A DNA stretch of 47,467 nt from Opitutaceae bacterium. GTDB lineage: Bacteria; Verrucomicrobiota; Verrucomicrobiia; Opitutales; Opitutaceae. Position 1 is the stretch's first letter, and every line of letters starts with the position of its first letter. This document shows, piece by piece, positions 3,229 through 30,449 of the stretch. The stretch is taken from assembly GCA_028822375.1 (NCBI GenBank), contig JAPKDW010000004.1, positions 1-47,467 of the forward strand, written 5' to 3'. The notes under the pieces were generated by a model. It was not told the DNA's origin. It saw only the letters and a program-made list of their open reading frames with translations, and searched no databases. The position numbers and the translations under genes were made by a program.

Positions 3229-3264
3229 GGCCATTTAAATTACAACCTTGTGATTTAAATGGCC
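3229..3264. repeat. 36-bp near-perfect loopless palindrome
   Basis: GGCCATTTAAATTACAAC (3229-3246) faces its reverse complement in 3247-3264 with two mismatches out of 18. The centre ATTACAACCTTGTGAT resembles the centre of a second palindrome at 25299-25340, while the outer arms differ. It lies 84 bases after the DUF1080 stop and about 470 bases before the TonB receptor start. It could be an operator, a cruciform or a REP-like repeat; there is no U-tract to make it a terminator. Confidence 0.6.
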
Positions 3265-19777: not shown

Positions 19778-20737
19778 TTAGGGAGAGGTGGTTTCTCTCT
19801 TGAAACTTCGTTTGACGAGTTTCGTTAGCAATCCTCGCTTGGGAGCCGCCATCCAGACAAGTCCGAATATGAAGCCGGCTATGACGGTCATGCCTCCGGC
19901 GATCGAAGCTTCAAGCCAGGTGGCCAAATGGAAACCGAGAACCGCGTAGAGCAAGGAGAATAGGATTGAAAGCCAGATCGCTTTAGGAAGCCGATCTGTG
20001 ATGAGTAGGGCAGTCGCTCCGGGGAAAATGATCATCGCGATTACCAAGACGACTCCAACCGATTCGAAGGAGCTGACGATTACGACCGAGAGAAAGAGCG
20101 TTAGCCCGTACTGGTAGCGAGTGGGGTTGATTCCGAGCGAGGCGGCGAGACCTGGGTCGAATGAGGTGACGAGCATTTCCTTGAAAAAGGCGATGAGTAG
20201 GCCAATCGCGATTACTGCGATGATGGCCATGCGGATAACGGGTTCGGGTCCGATTTCAACTCCTCCAAGCATGGCGATGTCTTGAAGTGGGATGAATCCG
20301 AGTTCGCCGTAGAGTACGCATTCCGCGTCGAGATCGATCTTGTCGGCGAAGACTGAAATCAGAATGATTCCGATTGCAAAAAGGCTTGAGAAGACGATGC
20401 CAATCGCAGCGTCTGGTTTGATGCGAGAAGAGTGGCGTATCGCTTCGATCAAGACGACTGTTGTGATCCCAGCGGCGATTGCCCCAAGCATCATGGGGAG
20501 TGTGTCTCGGGAGTTGGTGAGCAGAAACGCGATTGTGATGCCCGGTAGCAAGCTGTGGCTGATAGCGTCGCCAACCAGCGCCATGCGTCGGAGGATAACG
20601 AAGCAACCGACAAGTCCGCAAGTTCCGGATACAAGAAACCCCATCAATACTATCCAAAACGAATTGTCGCCGTATTCGGCCCAAGGCTGGACGAATACAG
20701 TGTGCCAATCGAAATCTGGAAAGAAATGTTCGCGCAT
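19778..20737 (-). CDS. Metal ABC transporter permease (second subunit, TroD/YtgD-like)
   Basis: A 319-residue membrane protein with about eight to nine helices. It shows FLVSGTCGLVGCFVILRRMA, LVGDAISHSLLPGITIAFL, SSFESVGVVLVIAMIIFPGA and TALLITDRLPKAIWLSILFS, the hallmarks of the Zn/Mn/Fe ABC-3 permease family. It follows the permease-repressor fusion gene by 59 bases and is the last gene of the operon. With the other permease it would form the heterodimeric channel. A basic C-terminal tail is present but there is no repressor domain here. Confidence 0.9.
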   Translation of the reverse strand: MREHFFPDFDWHTVFVQPWAEYGDNSFWIVLMGFLVSGTCGLVGCFVILRRMALVGDAISHSLLPGITIAFLLTNSRDTLPMMLGAIAAGITTVVLIEAIRHSSRIKPDAAIGIVFSSLFAIGIILISVFADKIDLDAECVLYGELGFIPLQDIAMLGGVEIGPEPVIRMAIIAVIAIGLLIAFFKEMLVTSFDPGLAASLGINPTRYQYGLTLFLSVVIVSSFESVGVVLVIAMIIFPGATALLITDRLPKAIWLSILFSLLYAVLGFHLATWLEASIAGGMTVIAGFIFGLVWMAAPKRGLLTKLVKRSFKRETTSP

Positions 20738-20796
20738 CTGATTAAGGATGAATTATGAGGTAAGAATGATGAAGTATTTGAGTCATTGGAATTCTA

Positions 20797-22236
20797 CTAC
20801 GGTTTTATGGCATCTCGGTTCGGGATGAGTTTTCCGTGGGGGTCGTGGATTGGGTTCTTGAGACGGGCTTCGATTCGGAGCACGATGTCTTCACCTAAAT
20901 GATGCTCGGTGTCTTCGGCGTCATCGTGAACGTGGTCTGTTTGGTACTGAGCAGCGTTGGTTAGGTAGAGCTCCCATAGGCGATGGTTGCGGACGATCTC
21001 ACAGGCGCGGTACCATCCTGGTTTTGTAAGCTCGAATTGAGCTTTGCCGCTCATTTTTGTACCGTTTGCTGTATCCAAACGCAAAGCCATGCCGGCTTTT
21101 ACAAGGTTTCGGATTTCCGCTTCGGTTTCGTGGAGGCTTGCGTTACGCTCGGTAGCGAGCTTGCCGGCTTCGAAAGCTCTCTTTGTGAATTGAGAGTTTT
21201 CGTTTAAATGGAAGACGGCTTTAAGTGTATTTTCTAGAGCGATACGTTTGCGCTGTTTGCGTCGCCGGAGTATCTTTGGAAGGAGTCCGTGTCGAGGCCC
21301 GAATAAGAGGGCGAGTAAGAAGATACTCGTGGCTCCGAGAACGATAAAAGGACCGGTTGGAAGATTGTTGGATAGGTAGGAAACGAAGGCGCCGATCGCT
21401 CCTGAGAGCATTCCGAACACCGCTGCGAGAACGAGCATCCAGTGCATCCGATCGGTCAGCAGAAAAGCTGCGGCTGCGGGAGTTATGAGCAAGGCCGAGA
21501 CGAGGACCACTCCAACGGCTTGGAGCGATACGACTACTGCGAACGTTAGCAAAGCCATGAGGGCGTAGTGCAATATCTTCACTGGCATTCCAAGCGCTTG
21601 GGCGAAGCCAATATCGAAGCTGATGACGAGGAATTCTTTGTAGAATAGCAAGATGACGACGACCGTTATTAGGGAGATTATTCCGAGTAGTCGAATGTCT
21701 CCGGAGGACAGGGCCGCGGCTTGGCCAAAGAAGAATTTGTCGAGGCCGGACTTGTTGCCCATCGCCAAGTTTTGGATGACGGTGGTCATGCAAATACCGA
21801 CTCCGTAGAACCCTGCTAGGACCATTCCCATGGCGCTGTCTTCTTTGAGATGAGTGGTTTGCTTAATCCAACCCACAAGGGCGACGCCTAAGATTCCTGC
21901 TGCGGTTGCTCCGACGAATATGGCCCATGGATCTTTCGACGCATTCCAGAGGAAGCCCATCGCGACGCCTGGCAATACGGCGTGCGAGAGGGTATCGCCG
22001 AGTAGGGAGAGTTTGCGAACGACCAGAAAACTGCCGAGAATTCCGCAGCAAAACCCGATCAACAAGGTGCCAATCAATGCAGTGCGAATGATTGGTTGCT
22101 GAAAAGAGAAGAAGTCTATGGCCTGTTCTGTCCAGGACGTTTCCGAGATATCACCGATCTTGGCCGCATGGGCTAAGATCGGCAGAGCCAGAAGCGCTAG
22201 CGTAAAGAGAATCTGTTTTCCGGCGCGGTTCATCAA
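20797..22236 (-). CDS. Metal ABC permease fused to a DtxR-like repressor domain (YtgCR architecture)
   Basis: A 479-residue fusion. Residues 1-25 look like a signal or first helix. About 45-315 is an ABC-3 permease (GSFLVVRKLSLLGDTLSHAV, VSLQAVGVVLVSALLITPAA). A strongly basic linker RRRKQRKR follows at 324-331. Residues 334-479 form a winged-helix plus metal-binding/dimerisation region: HETEAEIRNLVKAGMAL (wing helices), EIVRNHRLWELYL at 413-425, HVHDDAEDTEHHLGED around 435-450, and NPIHDPHGKLIPNRD, as in MntR/DtxR/IdeR. The same fusion is known in Chlamydia (YtgCR), where the repressor is released by cleavage. Whether cleavage occurs here is unknown. It overlaps the ATPase gene by four bases. 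Confidence 0.92.
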   Translation of the reverse strand: MMNRAGKQILFTLALLALPILAHAAKIGDISETSWTEQAIDFFSFQQPIIRTALIGTLLIGFCCGILGSFLVVRKLSLLGDTLSHAVLPGVAMGFLWNASKDPWAIFVGATAAGILGVALVGWIKQTTHLKEDSAMGMVLAGFYGVGICMTTVIQNLAMGNKSGLDKFFFGQAAALSSGDIRLLGIISLITVVVILLFYKEFLVISFDIGFAQALGMPVKILHYALMALLTFAVVVSLQAVGVVLVSALLITPAAAAFLLTDRMHWMLVLAAVFGMLSGAIGAFVSYLSNNLPTGPFIVLGATSIFLLALLFGPRHGLLPKILRRRKQRKRIALENTLKAVFHLNENSQFTKRAFEAGKLATERNASLHETEAEIRNLVKAGMALRLDTANGTKMSGKAQFELTKPGWYRACEIVRNHRLWELYLTNAAQYQTDHVHDDAEDTEHHLGEDIVLRIEARLKNPIHDPHGKLIPNRDAIKP

Positions 22237-23054
22237 CCTACATTGTCGCGCGTATCGCCATCGAATTTCTTGCGAGCGCGGCTGAGGGCTACTTCGGAAA
22301 GAATGCTCAAGCGTCCGCCGTAGGCGTTCTGTAGATTTTCGAAAGTGAAGACATCTGCCGTCTTCCCATAGGCGACGACGCGCATATTCAATAAAAGGAT
22401 ACGGTCAAAGTACTCGGGCGCGGTTGTGAGGTCGTGATGCACGACGATAAGCGTTTTGCCCTGGGCTTGTAGCTCGCGAAGGATTTCGATGATGGCGGCT
22501 TCGGTGGTAGCATCCACTCCGACAAAAGGTTCGTCCATTAGGTAGAGGTCGCTTTCTTGGGCTAGGGCGCGAGCGAGAAATACACGTTGTTGTTGGCCGC
22601 CGGAAAGATTGGAGATTTGACGAGTCGCATAGGAGGTCATCTTCACTTTCTCCAAACAGCTCATAGCGATTTCCTTGTCGGCTTTGCTAGGTCGTTTGAA
22701 AGGACCGAGTCGGCCGTAGCGTCCCATTAGGACTACGTCGAGAGCGTTGACCGGAAAATCCCAGTCAACGGATTCGCGTTGCGGGACGTAGCCGATTCGC
22801 GTGACAGCTTTCTTGAAGGGTTTTCCGAAAACTTTGATCCATCCGCTGGATACAGGAAGCAGACCCATGATGGCTTTGATGAGAGTCGACTTGCCCGCTC
22901 CATTGGGACCGACTACTCCGACGATAGAGCCCTTGGGGACTTTTAGGTCGATTCCGTAGAGAACGGGCCGTTTGGTATAGGCTACGGTAAGATCGTGGAC
23001 TTCGAGCGGCGCGGCGCTTTTAGAATTAGTTTGAGTTGTTGAAGAAGATTGCAT
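22233..23054 (-). CDS. Metal ABC transporter ATPase (TroB/YtgB-like)
   Basis: A 273-residue ABC ATPase: Walker [10 protein letters not shown] at 49-57, PQRESVDWDFPVNALDVVLM, the Q-loop region typical of Zn/Mn ATPases, signature LSGGQ at 150-154, Walker B YLMDEP at 171-176 and switch His in VVHHDL. Length is standard. It energises uptake through the two permeases. A 42-base gap separates it from the porin gene upstream, and it overlaps the fusion gene downstream by four bases. Confidence 0.92.
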   Translation of the reverse strand: MQSSSTTQTNSKSAAPLEVHDLTVAYTKRPVLYGIDLKVPKGSIVGVVGPNGAGKSTLIKAIMGLLPVSSGWIKVFGKPFKKAVTRIGYVPQRESVDWDFPVNALDVVLMGRYGRLGPFKRPSKADKEIAMSCLEKVKMTSYATRQISNLSGGQQQRVFLARALAQESDLYLMDEPFVGVDATTEAAIIEILRELQAQGKTLIVVHHDLTTAPEYFDRILLLNMRVVAYGKTADVFTFENLQNAYGGRLSILSEVALSRARKKFDGDTRDNVG

Positions 23055-23096
23055 CGACGTAGAGAAGGGAATCAGGACTTGGGTAAATCGGCAATT

Positions 23097-24200
23097 CTAG
23101 AAATCGGTCGTTAATCGTATGCCGGCGACGAGCGCGTCTTTGGAGGTTTCGCGCGCATTTAGAATCCATTGAATGCTTGGCTGAATGCTCCAGATCGCAG
23201 CGAGCTGGGACGCGTAGGTGATTTCGAATACTTCCTCAGCGGGTCTTATAGCGTCATCGCTGGAGAAACTCGTGCGGGAATAGGCTATTCCGAGAGTATC
23301 GTCCGGGCGGCTTTCGACAAATCCGTTTAAGTTGACCCCTAAGTCGAAGTAGCGCGTGACGGCGCTACGGTCGGATTTCGGATTAAATCCGATGCGCGAG
23401 AATACGCTGATCGAATCGCCGATTGAGTGGTCGACGATTGCGTAGAATGCGTGGTTGCCTTTGACGTTCGAGTCTTGGGAGAACGACTCGAAGATTCCGC
23501 TATGGTAGTAGGCGCCGATTTTGAATACGCTGTTCTGTTCTCTTGTTGCGTGATAATTCCAGCCTCGTTCGGCGATGAAGAAATATCCGGCCTCGCCGCC
23601 CATTTTCCAATTCAGTCCGTGATCGCTTTCGTTGCCTGGACCCGGGTCCCCTGCGTAGACTGCAGTTTTCCAGTAGCCGGTATTCAGTTCTTGGAGCCAC
23701 TCAATACCCGCTGATCCGACTGAGAAGATTGGAGCCGATACATTGGCCGATACTGTGGGAATGGCGCCGAAGTTCGCGTTGATGAAGAGAGCTCCCGATT
23801 CTGAAACGTAGAAGCTTTCATCGGAAGCAAGTTGTCCGAATCGAATATGCATGTCGTCGAAACTGTGTTCGAGCCAAGCGGTAAAGAGAATGACTTTGGA
23901 GTCGGTGATGATATTGCTGAAAACGCCAAAATCGCCCGTGAAGCCATCGACGTCGCGATCTCCGCCAAAAGCAAAGAAGTTGAAGTGTCCCTTGGTTTGT
24001 TCGCTCAGTTCGAAATCCGCTCCGAGGTCGATTAATCCCATTGAGCGATTGCCGGAGCCGACCCCACCGTCGAGAAGAGACCAGGTTTCTAAGGTCGCGG
24101 AGGCGTAGGGTTGGAAGAAATTGTTGGATTCGATTTCCTGTCCTGCGAGGGGCAGCCTAAATAGAGCAAGAGCGAGCAGGGCAGCGAAATTGCGTTTCAT
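23097..24200 (-). CDS. OprB-family carbohydrate-type porin within the metal operon
   Basis: A 367-residue outer-membrane protein with signal peptide (MKRNFAALLALALFRLPLAG). It is built of short beta-strands and ends in TTDF with a terminal Phe. Landmarks are GLIDLGADFELSEQTKGHFN, HIRFGQLASDESFYVSESGA and SIQPSIQWILNARETSKDAL, typical of OprB porins, which usually pass sugars. It lies 21 bases after the metal-binding protein gene and 42 before the ATPase, so it is co-transcribed with metal transport genes. The context suggests that it passes metal ions or metal complexes through the outer membrane; this is an inference. Confidence 0.8.
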   Translation of the reverse strand: MKRNFAALLALALFRLPLAGQEIESNNFFQPYASATLETWSLLDGGVGSGNRSMGLIDLGADFELSEQTKGHFNFFAFGGDRDVDGFTGDFGVFSNIITDSKVILFTAWLEHSFDDMHIRFGQLASDESFYVSESGALFINANFGAIPTVSANVSAPIFSVGSAGIEWLQELNTGYWKTAVYAGDPGPGNESDHGLNWKMGGEAGYFFIAERGWNYHATREQNSVFKIGAYYHSGIFESFSQDSNVKGNHAFYAIVDHSIGDSISVFSRIGFNPKSDRSAVTRYFDLGVNLNGFVESRPDDTLGIAYSRTSFSSDDAIRPAEEVFEITYASQLAAIWSIQPSIQWILNARETSKDALVAGIRLTTDF

Positions 24201-24221
24201 AGAATCGGACTCCGATGGGCT

Positions 24222-25181
24222 TTACCGCAACGCGTCGGCGATGGTAGAGATGTTTGCTTTGACCATGCCTTCGTAGGTCCCGACGTCGAAAGAATCGCCA
24301 TTGGCAGCGGTTTCAATATGGCCTGGAAGTCCCATGGCGTCAGAAAAAAGTTCTCCGCCGATCGCGCAGTCCGACGCTTCGCTGATACGTTGTATGGCTG
24401 CTGGGGATACGCTGGATTCTACGAAGATGGCTTTGATGTCGTTTTTTTTGATAAACTCAATGATCTTCACCATGTCGGCCAGTCCGGCTTCGCTTTGGGT
24501 CGAAATGCCCTGCACGCCTATGACGCGAAAATCAAAAGCGCGGCCGAAGTAATTATAGGCGTCATGGCTGGTGATGAGGACGCGCTGTTTTTCGGGGATC
24601 GTAGCCAGATAGTCTATACCCCATTGATAGTGGTTTTGGTAGGCTTGTTCGGTTGCTGCTCCGCGTTGGCGATATCCGTCGGCATGGTCGGGATCGATCT
24701 CGGCGAGGGCGTTTACGACCGTTTCAATGCAATGCGCCCAGAGGCGAGGGTCGAACCAAACATGCGGGTCGTAGTGACCTTCGAATTCGGCTTGTTCGAG
24801 AAGCTTCTCTTCAGGGATACTTTCGGTGACTGCGTAGACGGGTTTGTTACGACGCCCCAGTTTGACCAGGATATCGGCCAAACGGCCTTCGAGGTGGAGG
24901 CCATTGTAGAAAATAACGTCAGCGGATTGGAGGGTGTTGATATCCGGAGCGGTAGCTTTGTAGAGGTGGGGATCGACGCCCGGTCCCATGAGTCCGGAAA
25001 CTTCCGCCCGATCGCCCGCTACGGAACGGGCGAGATCGGCGACCATTGTGGTCGTTGCGGCAATGCGAATTGTATCGGCGGCGTAGCTGGTCGCAAAGAG
25101 AATTCCCGCGAGCAGAGTGAGCGATGTTCGAAAGACAAGCTGAACCTTAATGAAAGCGTGCATGGGTATAGCGTTCTGCAA
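24222..25181 (-). CDS. Periplasmic metal-binding protein of the ABC system (TroA-like)
   Basis: A 319-residue protein with a signal region (about residues 16-35). Candidate metal ligands are H72 (GVDPHLYKA), H140 (YDPHVWFDP), H206 (SHDAYNYF) and D281 (ELFSDAMG), that is three His and one Asp as in TroA. The His-rich loop of zinc-specific ZnuA is missing, and the third ligand is His rather than the Glu of PsaA/MntC proteins. Mn, Fe or Zn are possible. It is the first gene of a five-gene operon, and a palindrome candidate operator is about 47 bases ahead of its start. An earlier or later Met (residue 7) could be the real start. Confidence 0.9.
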   Translation of the reverse strand: MQNAIPMHAFIKVQLVFRTSLTLLAGILFATSYAADTIRIAATTTMVADLARSVAGDRAEVSGLMGPGVDPHLYKATAPDINTLQSADVIFYNGLHLEGRLADILVKLGRRNKPVYAVTESIPEEKLLEQAEFEGHYDPHVWFDPRLWAHCIETVVNALAEIDPDHADGYRQRGAATEQAYQNHYQWGIDYLATIPEKQRVLITSHDAYNYFGRAFDFRVIGVQGISTQSEAGLADMVKIIEFIKKNDIKAIFVESSVSPAAIQRISEASDCAIGGELFSDAMGLPGHIETAANGDSFDVGTYEGMVKANISTIADALR

Positions 25182-25227
25182 GGACTTTGAGTTCAGTCAA
25201 TTCTAATTTTTAGTTGGCAAAGAATTA

Positions 25228-25245
25228 ACTTTGACTAATCAAAGT
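25228..25245. promoter_or_regulatory. Candidate metal-repressor operator
   Basis: ACTTTGA (25228-25234) and TCAAAGT (25239-25245) form a perfect 7-base inverted repeat around CTAA. Size, AT-richness and position (about 47 bases ahead of the metal-binding protein start, overlapping where a promoter should lie) match DtxR/MntR-type boxes. The obvious ligand is the repressor domain fused to the permease of the same operon. No binding data; this is inference. Confidence 0.5.
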
Positions 25246-25298
25246 AGAAAACCTCTCGTATGAGCCGAATGATCGGGCTGGTTTTCTGTCTGGCGCGT

Positions 25299-25340
25299 CA
25301 TGACTTTTCAAATTACAACGTTGTAATTTTAAGAGTCATG
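25299..25340. repeat. 42-bp near-perfect palindrome with AATTACAACGTTGTAATT core
   Basis: The core AATTACAACGTTGTAATT (25311-25328) is an exact palindrome with a central CG. Outer arms CATGACTTTTCA and TTAAGAGTCATG extend the symmetry with two mismatches. It sits 43 bases past the stop of the methyltransferase and about 118 bases upstream of the metal-binding protein gene. The core resembles LacI-family operators in layout and is shared with 3229-3264. Function is unknown. Confidence 0.6.
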
Positions 25341-25382
25341 GATTTGGGGATCCGGCCCTTTGAGAGGATCGCTTGTGTGTGG

Positions 25383-26141
25383 CTATTGTTTTTGGGCGAT
25401 GTAGAGGCGGCTGATCCAGGCGGGTCCGGCGGCGGGGAAGTCCTGACAGGCGAGGACTTTGAAGGAGCATTGCTTTTCTAGGTGTCGAATTACGCGCTCG
25501 CGGGGAATGGCGTTCATTTCGAAATAGCTTGGGCTATTGAAGAATGGAATGCGTTGGGCTATTGCTTTGCAGCGGTAGTGAAACCGTTTCCGCAATCGGC
25601 GAAAAGGCTTTCGGTTTCCTTCGAAGCTGGGGTCGAGACGGCTGGGCAGTTGGAAGACGAAGAGTCCTTGGGGTTTCAGGACTCTAGAAAACTCGTGAAA
25701 GTACTCGAGCGTGTATCGAGGCGCGATGTGCTGGAAGACGATCGCGGAATAGACAAAGTCGATTGATTCGTTTTCGAAGTTCTCGAGTTGAGTGTTTTGA
25801 TTGACGATGAAGGTACAATTGGGGCCCCGGGCGATTCGTTGATTAGCGTAGGCCACCATTTTCGTGGAAATGTCGATTCCGTAGCAGGTGTCGAAGTGTT
25901 TGGATAGGGGAAAGGTGAGTCGGCCTCCGCCGCAACCAAAGTCGATCGCGGAGTCGCCTCCGAGCGAAAGTCCGGATTGCAAGAGCCGGGTCTCTAGATC
26001 GTCGATAACGCCTTCGCCGGTTTTGTAGAATTCGTTTTCATCCCATTTGCCGCCTCGTTTAGTGTCGTCGGAGAGGACCGTCCACAGAGGATCTTCTGCG
26101 GCGAGCGATTCGAAATTCGACTCGAGTTGGCTTAGGTTCAT
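25383..26141 (-). CDS. Class I SAM-dependent methyltransferase
   Basis: From ATG 26141 the protein is 252 residues; the frame extends upstream, but this ATG overlaps the preceding stop (ATGA) and gives a normal start, MNLSQLESNFESLAAEDPLW. The SAM site is AIDFGCGGGRLTFPLSKHF followed by CYGIDISTKM. Motif II-IV regions are IDFVYSAIVFQHIAP and EFSRVLKPQGLFVFQLPSRL. The substrate is unknown; the fold is that of small-molecule or lipid methylases (type 11). It is translated together with the SpoU methylase gene. Confidence 0.85.
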   Translation of the reverse strand: MNLSQLESNFESLAAEDPLWTVLSDDTKRGGKWDENEFYKTGEGVIDDLETRLLQSGLSLGGDSAIDFGCGGGRLTFPLSKHFDTCYGIDISTKMVAYANQRIARGPNCTFIVNQNTQLENFENESIDFVYSAIVFQHIAPRYTLEYFHEFSRVLKPQGLFVFQLPSRLDPSFEGNRKPFRRLRKRFHYRCKAIAQRIPFFNSPSYFEMNAIPRERVIRHLEKQCSFKVLACQDFPAAGPAWISRLYIAQKQ

Positions 26142-28844: not shown

Positions 28845-30449
28845 TTACGCTTTCCGTTCGTTTTTGATGAACGAGAAGGTTCCTATGATGAAGAGAATTG
28901 CTAGTAGCGCGAGTCCCACGGCAGGTATAATCCCGTGCCAGTCGTTGAAGTGGGCTTTCCCGTAAAGCACCCAAACCGATCCTACAGTGGCGATTCCGGT
29001 CGCGACTCCCATGAGGACGTTCCAGATCACGCGGGCGGTTCCTTTGGGGCGATGTTCGCCTAATACCTTCTTGGAATTCATCATTAGGAAGAAGGTGAAA
29101 TAGGCGATGGGGATGAGTGATCCGCCGATGACGGAAGTGGGGATAGCCAATGCTGCCGCCGCGGCTCCAGTCCAGATGAATGGGCCAGCGAATCCGGCGA
29201 TTCCGGATACGGCGCAGCCGATATAATGCGCCTTTTTGTTGCCTCGTTTTCCGAGTAGCTCTTGGAACGCGAGTCCGTTTATGAGCATCAGAATGATAAT
29301 CGTGGATAGGGCCATGCCGAGGACGCCGAAGCCGAAGATCGTTTGGGAGACGACTTTTCCTGCGAGCGGTTCGAGCGTAGTGGCGAGTTGGAAATTGTCC
29401 CGTTTGACGAGTGTCAGGGCGAGTTCCAGATCGGCCGCGTTCGTGACTCCTGGATGAGCTTCGACAAGCTGGGCGATGGTGCCGGCTCCGGCCGCGGGAT
29501 CAACGTCGCCGGTCTTAGCATGAAATTGCGAGGCAGCGGCTATGACGACGCAGCTTGTGGCGAGGAAGAAGGGAATGAACAGTCCGATCGAAAGGTCGAA
29601 GATCGAGAAGCCGCGTTGAACTTTTCCCCAGCGCTTTTTGAGCAACGAGTAAGGGAGCAGCCAGGTCATGTTGATTCCCACTGCGGTTCCGAATGCGGCG
29701 ATTATGATATCGCGTTGATCGTTGACGATCCTGGCGGTCCACCATTCGGGTTGGGTCGATTGAGCGATCAGAGCTTTGAGGGTAGCCGCCGGTTCCACTA
29801 GAAGAGAAGGGTCGGGGATGAGGCCTGCGAGGAGGGCGCCCCAGCTAATGTCACCGCTTGTCGAAAGCGTGATAACAACGGCGACGAAAGAGAGCACGAT
29901 GAGACCGACCATTATTTTGATAATCCGGTCGAATGTTTTGGTTCCCTTGCCTTCCGATTCGTACAGCACGTTGATTGCGAATCCGATAGCGAGAAGGATG
30001 AGGCAGATGATTACCGTCGAGGCCGTACTGTCGCCCACTGCCGGCAATAGGTTTTGTTGGATGGCGGCACGTCCCAGATTGAACTGCGGCATGCACCAGA
30101 CGATGTTGGCCATGATGGTGGCGATTAGCCAGGCCCACCCCAAGGCAGGGGAGAGGTGCGTGTTGACCAAGCCGAAGGGGGCTTTTTCGGTCGTAAGCGT
30201 TATGTAGGCGATGGCGGAGAGCATGATGATGCCGCAGATCATCGCCAAAGGCTGAAGCCAGAGCAGTCCGAAGCCGGCGATCACTCCTAAATAAAGGGCG
30301 CCTGCGAGCGAGCCACCGCCGAGCGTGATCGCTCCTTGCAACCATCCGGGACCGGAAAGTCGGGAATAGATACTCAGCTTTCGCATGAGAGGGGCTGCTT
30401 CCGCTTCGGCTAGCAAGGCGGTTTCGTGTTCTTGTTCGTTTGCGCTCAT
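28845..30449 (-). CDS. Nramp-like transporter lacking the metal-binding motifs
   Basis: A 534-residue membrane protein with about 11-12 helices and Nramp-family organisation. In helix 1 the usual DPGN is replaced: [20 protein letters not shown] has GGGS at residues 44-47. In helix 6 the usual MPH is replaced by GIN in [16 protein letters not shown]. These positions hold the transition-metal ligands in classical Nramp proteins, so metal transport is unlikely. Co-transcription with a sugar isomerase (ATGA overlap) and an oxidoreductase suggests a carbohydrate or other organic substrate. This is an inference; no biochemical precedent is known to me. Confidence 0.8.

Follow-up and report, generated by a model that had tools for sequence, protein, structure and literature searches.

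Does a metal importer whose permease carries a DtxR/MntR-like domain repress its own operon, as in Chlamydia, or does that domain serve the transporter to which it is joined? The question is raised by an ATP-binding cassette (ABC) metal importer encoded on the minus strand (19778-25163) of contig JAPKDW010000004.1 from an Opitutaceae bacterium of the Verrucomicrobiota, positions 1-47,467 of that contig being called the window here. The strength of the chlamydial YtgR case has led permease-repressor fusions to be read as self-repressing operons. Comparison among related loci splits what Chlamydia shows joined, with operator type going with a stand-alone MntR and the fused domain going with metal sites and a constant tether. 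With somewhat better than even confidence, the fused domain is proposed to sense metal and to control in cis the transporter that carries it, probably by feedback inhibition, while transcription would be under the stand-alone MntR. If so, feedback control of a metal ABC importer would reside in an easily deleted, testable domain, and the YtgCR model would need a test of the role of the uncleaved protein. The features on which the question turns are as follows.

20797-22233, minus strand: permease C fused to a DtxR/MntR-like domain, 478 amino acids (aa) (Pfam and NCBIfam matches)
21301-22098, minus strand: ABC-3 permease domain, residues 46-311 (ABC-3, 8e-70)
21229-21288, minus strand: tether from G316 to the first ligand position, N335, including the basic stretch RRRKQRKR at 21244-21267 (alignment)
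21097-21138, minus strand: position of the DNA-recognition helix, SLHETEAEIRNLVK, net charge -1 (alignment)
20818-21027, minus strand: metal-binding/dimerisation domain, with H417, E421, H436, E440, E443 and H444 kept and the fusion-specific W420 (Pfam and alignments)
25228-25245, no strand assigned: operator-like palindrome ACTTTGA-N4-TCAAAGT, assigned by comparison to the stand-alone MntR encoded elsewhere

The predicted fusion and its kinship to DtxR/MntR were borne out by profile searches: Fe_dep_repr_C matches residues 403-472 (8e-20), and the NCBIfam MntR model matches residues 334-474 (9e-16; 58 bits, the curated cut-off being far higher at 350). The original prediction had placed both a winged helix and a dimerisation/metal region in residues 334-479. 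The latter is recognized by Pfam; the former is not seen by PF01325 (no match at E up to 0.1), and its assignment rests on the NCBIfam MntR match together with multiple alignments. Among solved DtxR-family structures the best match (2.4e-14) covers only residues 79-155 of the 159-aa query, that is, the metal region. The start codon of the fused gene is the ATG at 22233, which overlaps the ATPase stop as ATGA; the basic linker ahead of the domain exists, at residues 323-330 rather than 324-331, the earlier count having started from a TTG one codon upstream.

The source assembly (93% complete) encodes one further PF02742 protein, a 222-aa MntR/IdeR-type regulator on another contig (C234, locus L001), alongside four Fur-family matches. 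To relate operator type to such regulators, the dyad TTTGA-N4-TCAAA was sought between 300 bases before and 30 bases after the estimated start of the substrate-binding protein (SBP) gene. The loci are samples, being matches in drawn genomes of which part were fetched (20 of the 104 matching Chlamydiota genomes), and the presence of a long MntR was taken from profile-search match tables. The dyad was found in 18 of 28 fused loci in genomes with a long MntR, in none of 31 in genomes without one (Fisher's test, 2e-8) and in 0 of 20 in Chlamydiota, which were counted apart; the count omits L044 and L231, where the class of the stand-alone regulator is unclear, and L051, L065, L067, L069 and L239, which have no SBP start. 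As a control, 19 other orderings of the half-site letters gave no match in loci with or without a long MntR. When the regulators themselves were compared (28 neighbouring ones plus those of two genomes of the window's genus), the dyad occurred in 11 of the 12 loci with a PGT-type recognition helix, a class defined after the alignments had been seen, and in 0 of the 18 others (P value 2e-7). A second dyad (B; TAGCN4GCTA or TTAGN6CTAA) was present in 3 of 28 long-MntR loci versus 18 of 31 others (P value 3e-4, a descriptive figure since the dyad was picked from the same data) and in 10 of the 18 loci with a non-PGT regulator helix. Operators are mixed within the window's own fused-domain group, where the window and L038 carry TTTGA-N4-TCAAA and L033, L034, L035, L054, L060 and L063 carry a TTAG..CTAA dyad. 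Operator type goes with the stand-alone MntR and its recognition helix rather than with the fused domain, and the comparison gives no sign that the domain binds the operator of its own operon.

The 18-base inverted repeat that had been noted ahead of the operon is real: it sits 64 bases upstream of the SBP ATG and is present as a single exact copy in the genome. When the upstream region was base-shuffled 300 times, a dyad with arms of at least 7 and a spacer of at most 4 bases arose in 3% of the shuffles. The palindrome is considered more than chance because the same-genus genome L038 keeps the site with one arm base altered (TTTTGACTAATCAAAG), and does so together with an identical MntR helix (14/14). 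Its former assignment to the fused domain, as repressor of the operon, is not upheld, given that the site tracks the stand-alone MntR helix, that the window's own helix is acidic and that the constant tether favours function while attached. In a promoter scan of 25120-25420 the only match was on the plus strand, the operon strand having none. A 20-base perfect palindrome nearby, AAATTACAACGTTGTAATTT at 25310-25329, was weighed as a possible second operator and rejected, as it looks like a dispersed hairpin: its core recurs at 26 genome places (up to 3 mismatches; reversed control 0), among them 25310-25329 and 3237-3256, none of the 12 inspected sites falls within a frame longer than 150 aa, and in half or more of these 12 the flanks can pair as far as about 20 bases from the centre, compensatory changes being visible by eye. 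The element looks like a REP-like (repetitive extragenic palindromic) or terminator-like hairpin.

The two halves of the fused domain have fared differently. In an alignment of 107 fused rows (the weak D-permease domains of L068 and L244 were excluded), the window retains all six ligands of the DtxR/MntR type, H417, E421, H436, E440, E443 and H444, which we take to correspond to H79, E83, H98, C/E102, E105 and H106. Positions equivalent to H79, E83, E105 and H106 are kept in 106 or 107 of the 107 fused domains; H98 is H in 24 of 24 and C/E102 is E in 23 of 24 of the window's group (20 of 20 each in Chlamydiota), and the two are mostly D and D in groups VB and PC. Tryptophan at DtxR position 82 marks the fused family in these alignments (106/107 rows, versus 4 of 53 rows of long and 1 of 20 of short stand-alone regulators); the one short row, L020, is placed among the fused domains in the tree and is probably a cut-off fused end. 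The window's domain is like the stand-alone repressors MntR, IdeR and DtxR in its metal and dimer region, and differs from them in being fused, in this tryptophan and in its replaced recognition helix, SLHETEAEIRNLVK as against TPGTATSMVKSLAK in its own MntR (net charge by letter count -1 versus +2). The first 8 helix positions hold on average 1.75 acids in the window's group; the average is 0.05-0.67 in the remaining fused groups and, among stand-alone regulators, 0.23 for long and 0.00 for short ones. Net charge alone was rejected as a discriminator of fused from stand-alone domains, as it gave no separation (means of +0.4 in VA, +2.8 in VB, +3.2 in PC, +3.2 in CH, +2.5 in DF, +3.3 in SG, +0.9 in long MntR and +2.3 in short regulators); the acid-rich helix start is found only in the window's group.

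At least 8 of the 28 helix-turn-helix (HTH) positions are missing in 9 of 107 fused rows (3/20 Chlamydiota, 5/21 D-fused, 1/6 single-permease) versus 0 of 73 stand-alone rows. Expressed as a ratio to the metal region, helix-3 information lies at 0.48-0.62 across five of the six fused groups, the sixth (n = 6) standing at 0.77; the two stand-alone groups have 0.76 and 0.99. Between two species of the genus, the recognition helix is identical at 14 of 14 positions in the stand-alone regulator and 9 of 14 in the fused domain; the metal region also scores lower in the fused domain (30/41, versus 35/41). The fused domain seems to retain its sensor part while its DNA-reading part drifts or vanishes, and loss of DNA binding is argued here for the window and its group and left open for the other groups. 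In the two excluded loci, the second permeases (L068, 8343-9485; L244, 4191-5384) match the front of the profile only (1-95 and 1-93), as if the D domain were under loss.

The tether is constant. In 106 of 107 fused proteins, whether of C, D or single type, 29 residues separate the first metal ligand from the last hydrophobic segment, counted from a fixed point in that segment picked by eye (LLALLFG in the window); the odd one out, in L241, is a fragment whose frame is broken. A strict letter pattern gave a spacing of 18 in 93 of 107, each of 11 other spacings occurring at most 9 times. The length is held even though median identity between groups is 29-32% (four group pairs compared), and the stretch from the first ligand to H79 varies from 48 to 107 residues. 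A domain working only once released would have no need of such constancy, which argues for a function while attached. In L241 itself (an Abditibacterium record) the fused metal operon is broken across several reading frames, either by real damage or by sequencing error.

From the conserved ligands and the constant tether, we infer that metal binding to the accessory domain lowers transport. The C permease would carry a domesticated DtxR/MntR domain serving in cis as a cytosolic metal sensor: at high cytosolic metal, binding at H417/E421/H436/E440/E443/H444 would change the shape or contacts of the domain, which via the short tether of constant length would slow the transporter by feedback or trans-inhibition. 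Separately, the stand-alone MntR, through its PGTATSMVK recognition helix, would read TTTGA-N4-TCAAA at 25228-25245 and repress the operon. The importer is of the TroABCD/SitABCD type, and its metal is most probably Mn2+.

Several results weigh against this proposal. When corrected for relatedness, the operator association is weaker (6 supported independent pairs, of which 4.8 on average go the same way and none the opposite; median P value 0.06), and 10 of the 28 long-MntR loci have no exact dyad. A search of the window's own genome for further sites with at most 2 mismatches gave 10 against 16 for a reversed control, none standing out. Charge leaves room for DNA binding by fused domains, because the helix stretch is basic in VB, PC, CH, DF and SG (means of +2.5 to +3.3) and the mean of the window's group (+0.4) is close below that of long MntR (+0.9). 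DNA binding and repression by chlamydial YtgR are reported in PMC5599777 and PMC6504234. With one domain per transporter, as in the window's type and in Chlamydiota, a MetN-like pair of domains within one transporter is precluded, which leaves the domain to work singly, on its neighbours or between two transporters. Finally, AlphaFold run without an alignment gave mean predicted local distance difference test (pLDDT) scores of 44 and 41 and no usable model.

These points bear unequally on the alternatives. If the protein worked as chlamydial YtgCR does, the domain would be cleaved off in the cell and repress its own operon with metal as co-repressor. Gene order and a homologous domain are shared with YtgCR, a basic stretch precedes the domain, and cleavage and repression are reported for C. 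trachomatis (PMC5599777, PMC6504234 and PMC7755916); yet the operator type tracks the stand-alone MntR, which the window's own genome possesses, its recognition helix is acidic and the tether length is constant, so that this route is quite improbable here. Were the permease left uncleaved and its domain bound to operator DNA at the membrane, the same operator link and acidic helix would speak against it, as would the largely missing HTH in 9 of 107 fused domains, albeit in other groups. The fact that no row of the window's group lacks at least 8 of the 28 HTH positions, and the membrane-anchored LacI named as a possible precedent in the review PMC5599777, speak for it, and such a tethered repressor is to be regarded as very improbable.

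The domain could, on the other hand, take metal at the permease exit or hold transporters together, with transport unregulated. The metal core is better conserved than the HTH, the tether is constant and there is one domain per transporter in the window's type, all of which would fit; against it, sites of the DtxR type serve as regulatory sensors in known members, and this role is judged unlikely. Sensing in cis, with MntR controlling transcription, is the reading retained. Its precedents are MetNI and ModABC, ABC importers with substrate-sensing domains (PMC10710835, in whose main text DtxR does not appear), which resemble the proposed mechanism in that a cytosolic substrate-binding domain slows the importer; their domain is on the ATPase and of another fold, whereas that of the window is on the permease and would be inhibitory. 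Among the matches listed from a mainly open-access literature, no title or abstract opening proposed an in-cis sensor role for such a domain. The permease-repressor fusion itself is already known and its cross-phylum spread already in print: according to PMC5599777, Thompson et al. (2012) reported such fusions in 11 phyla and found that the chlamydial fusion is cleaved and YtgR binds its own promoter, and the released-repressor model is used in PMC6504234 and PMC7755916.

How far the proposal extends beyond the window depends on the fused family. In total, 85 fetched loci with a fused permease were tabulated. The predicted likeness to chlamydial ytgABCD holds for gene order (SBP, ATPase, C permease with a DtxR domain, D permease; 20 of 20 fetched loci), as it does for the six metal ligands (20/20) and the tether length (20/20); it fails for the porin, which is absent there, and the window also differs in its genomic stand-alone MntR, its MntR-following operator and its acidic recognition helix. 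Both permeases are fused in 20 of 85 loci (Verrucomicrobiota and Planctomycetota), 14 of these 20 having a stand-alone regulator within 3.5 kb. A single fused permease with no second one is found in L236, L237, L238, L239, L240 and L044, where the channel would be a homodimer bearing the same domain twice. Outside Chlamydiota, 28 of 65 loci have a stand-alone DtxR-family gene within 3.5 kb, compared with 0 of 20 in Chlamydiota, neighbour counts being lower bounds as some loci end at contig ends; a second DtxR-family match was found in 25 of 27 re-searched fused Verrucomicrobiota genomes (mostly ones without a long MntR). PF02742 itself, stand-alone regulators included, was found in 254 of 288 drawn genomes of the window's phylum, 104 of 116 Chlamydiota and 54 of 98 Planctomycetota. 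The best matches from Chlamydiota are almost all in frames of 393-493 aa, and 12 of the 116 genomes have an additional above-cut-off DtxR-family match (three with an internal stop). No relative was found in the viral contigs searched.

In a quick tree (Shimodaira-Hasegawa-like approximate likelihood-ratio test (SH-aLRT) support without bootstrap, the careful search being unfinished), 103 rows that hold all VA, VB, PC, CH and DF fused domains, and L020, group at SH-aLRT 91; 37 stand-alone regulators separate at 96, and Chlamydiota form one clade. Three stand-alone proteins about 320 aa long fall just outside the 103, as do 5 of the 6 single-permease domains. A single early origin of the fused domain fits this tree and is not proven by it. 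The envisaged device shared by Chlamydiota and Verrucomicrobiota survives as one fused-domain family, while its self-repression is unsupported for this species. In a wider reading, whose chance falls a little short of even, the permeases of metal ABC importers in Chlamydiota, Verrucomicrobiota, Planctomycetota and probably other phyla too would have gained a metal-sensing gate by the domestication, perhaps a single and early one, of a transcription-factor fold, often with one domain per permease (a heterodimeric sensor under the channel); the repressor released in Chlamydia would then derive secondarily from a domain that first worked in cis. L073 (5802-6797), L074 (5202-6164), L075 (5787-6776), L088 (5893-6858) and L090 (5978-6973) encode DtxR-like proteins that carry a long extension at the C terminus and total about 320-330 aa; the three of them in the tree are nearer the fused domains than are other stand-alone regulators.

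The remaining genes of the operon, all on the minus strand, are those of an ABC-3 metal importer with an added porin.

24222-25163, minus strand: first gene, SBP, a metal-binding periplasmic protein (ZnuA/AztC/MntC-like) (PF01297, 9e-74)
23097-24200, minus strand: OprB-type porin within the operon (PF04966, 6e-37)
22233-23054, minus strand: ABC ATPase (PF00005, ABC_tran, 9e-29)
19778-20737, minus strand: permease D, without a DtxR-like domain (PF00950, 3e-52)

Pfam matches thus confirmed the predicted order of binding protein, porin, ATPase, fused permease and second permease, the last (19778-20737) falling beyond the span of 20797-25245 first given for the operon. The ZnuA-type SBP, the ATPase and the ABC-3 permeases are as in the Mn/Zn/Fe importers TroABCD, SitABCD and MntABC, from which the window differs in the C-terminal DtxR-like domain of its permease and in the operon porin. 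Against NCBIfam the SBP matches AztC (9e-55) and MntC (1e-42), both below the curated cut-offs. Beyond the operon, no ABC-3 permease was found elsewhere in the 93%-complete assembly. An Nramp-family transporter (28845-30449; PF01566, 6e-23) is encoded nearby on the same strand as the operon. The porin of the operon is possibly an outer-membrane entry; further OprB-type porin matches, either inside the metal operon or next to it, come from L063, L064, L065, L235, L237 and L238, which suggests a dedicated outer-membrane entry for the metal.

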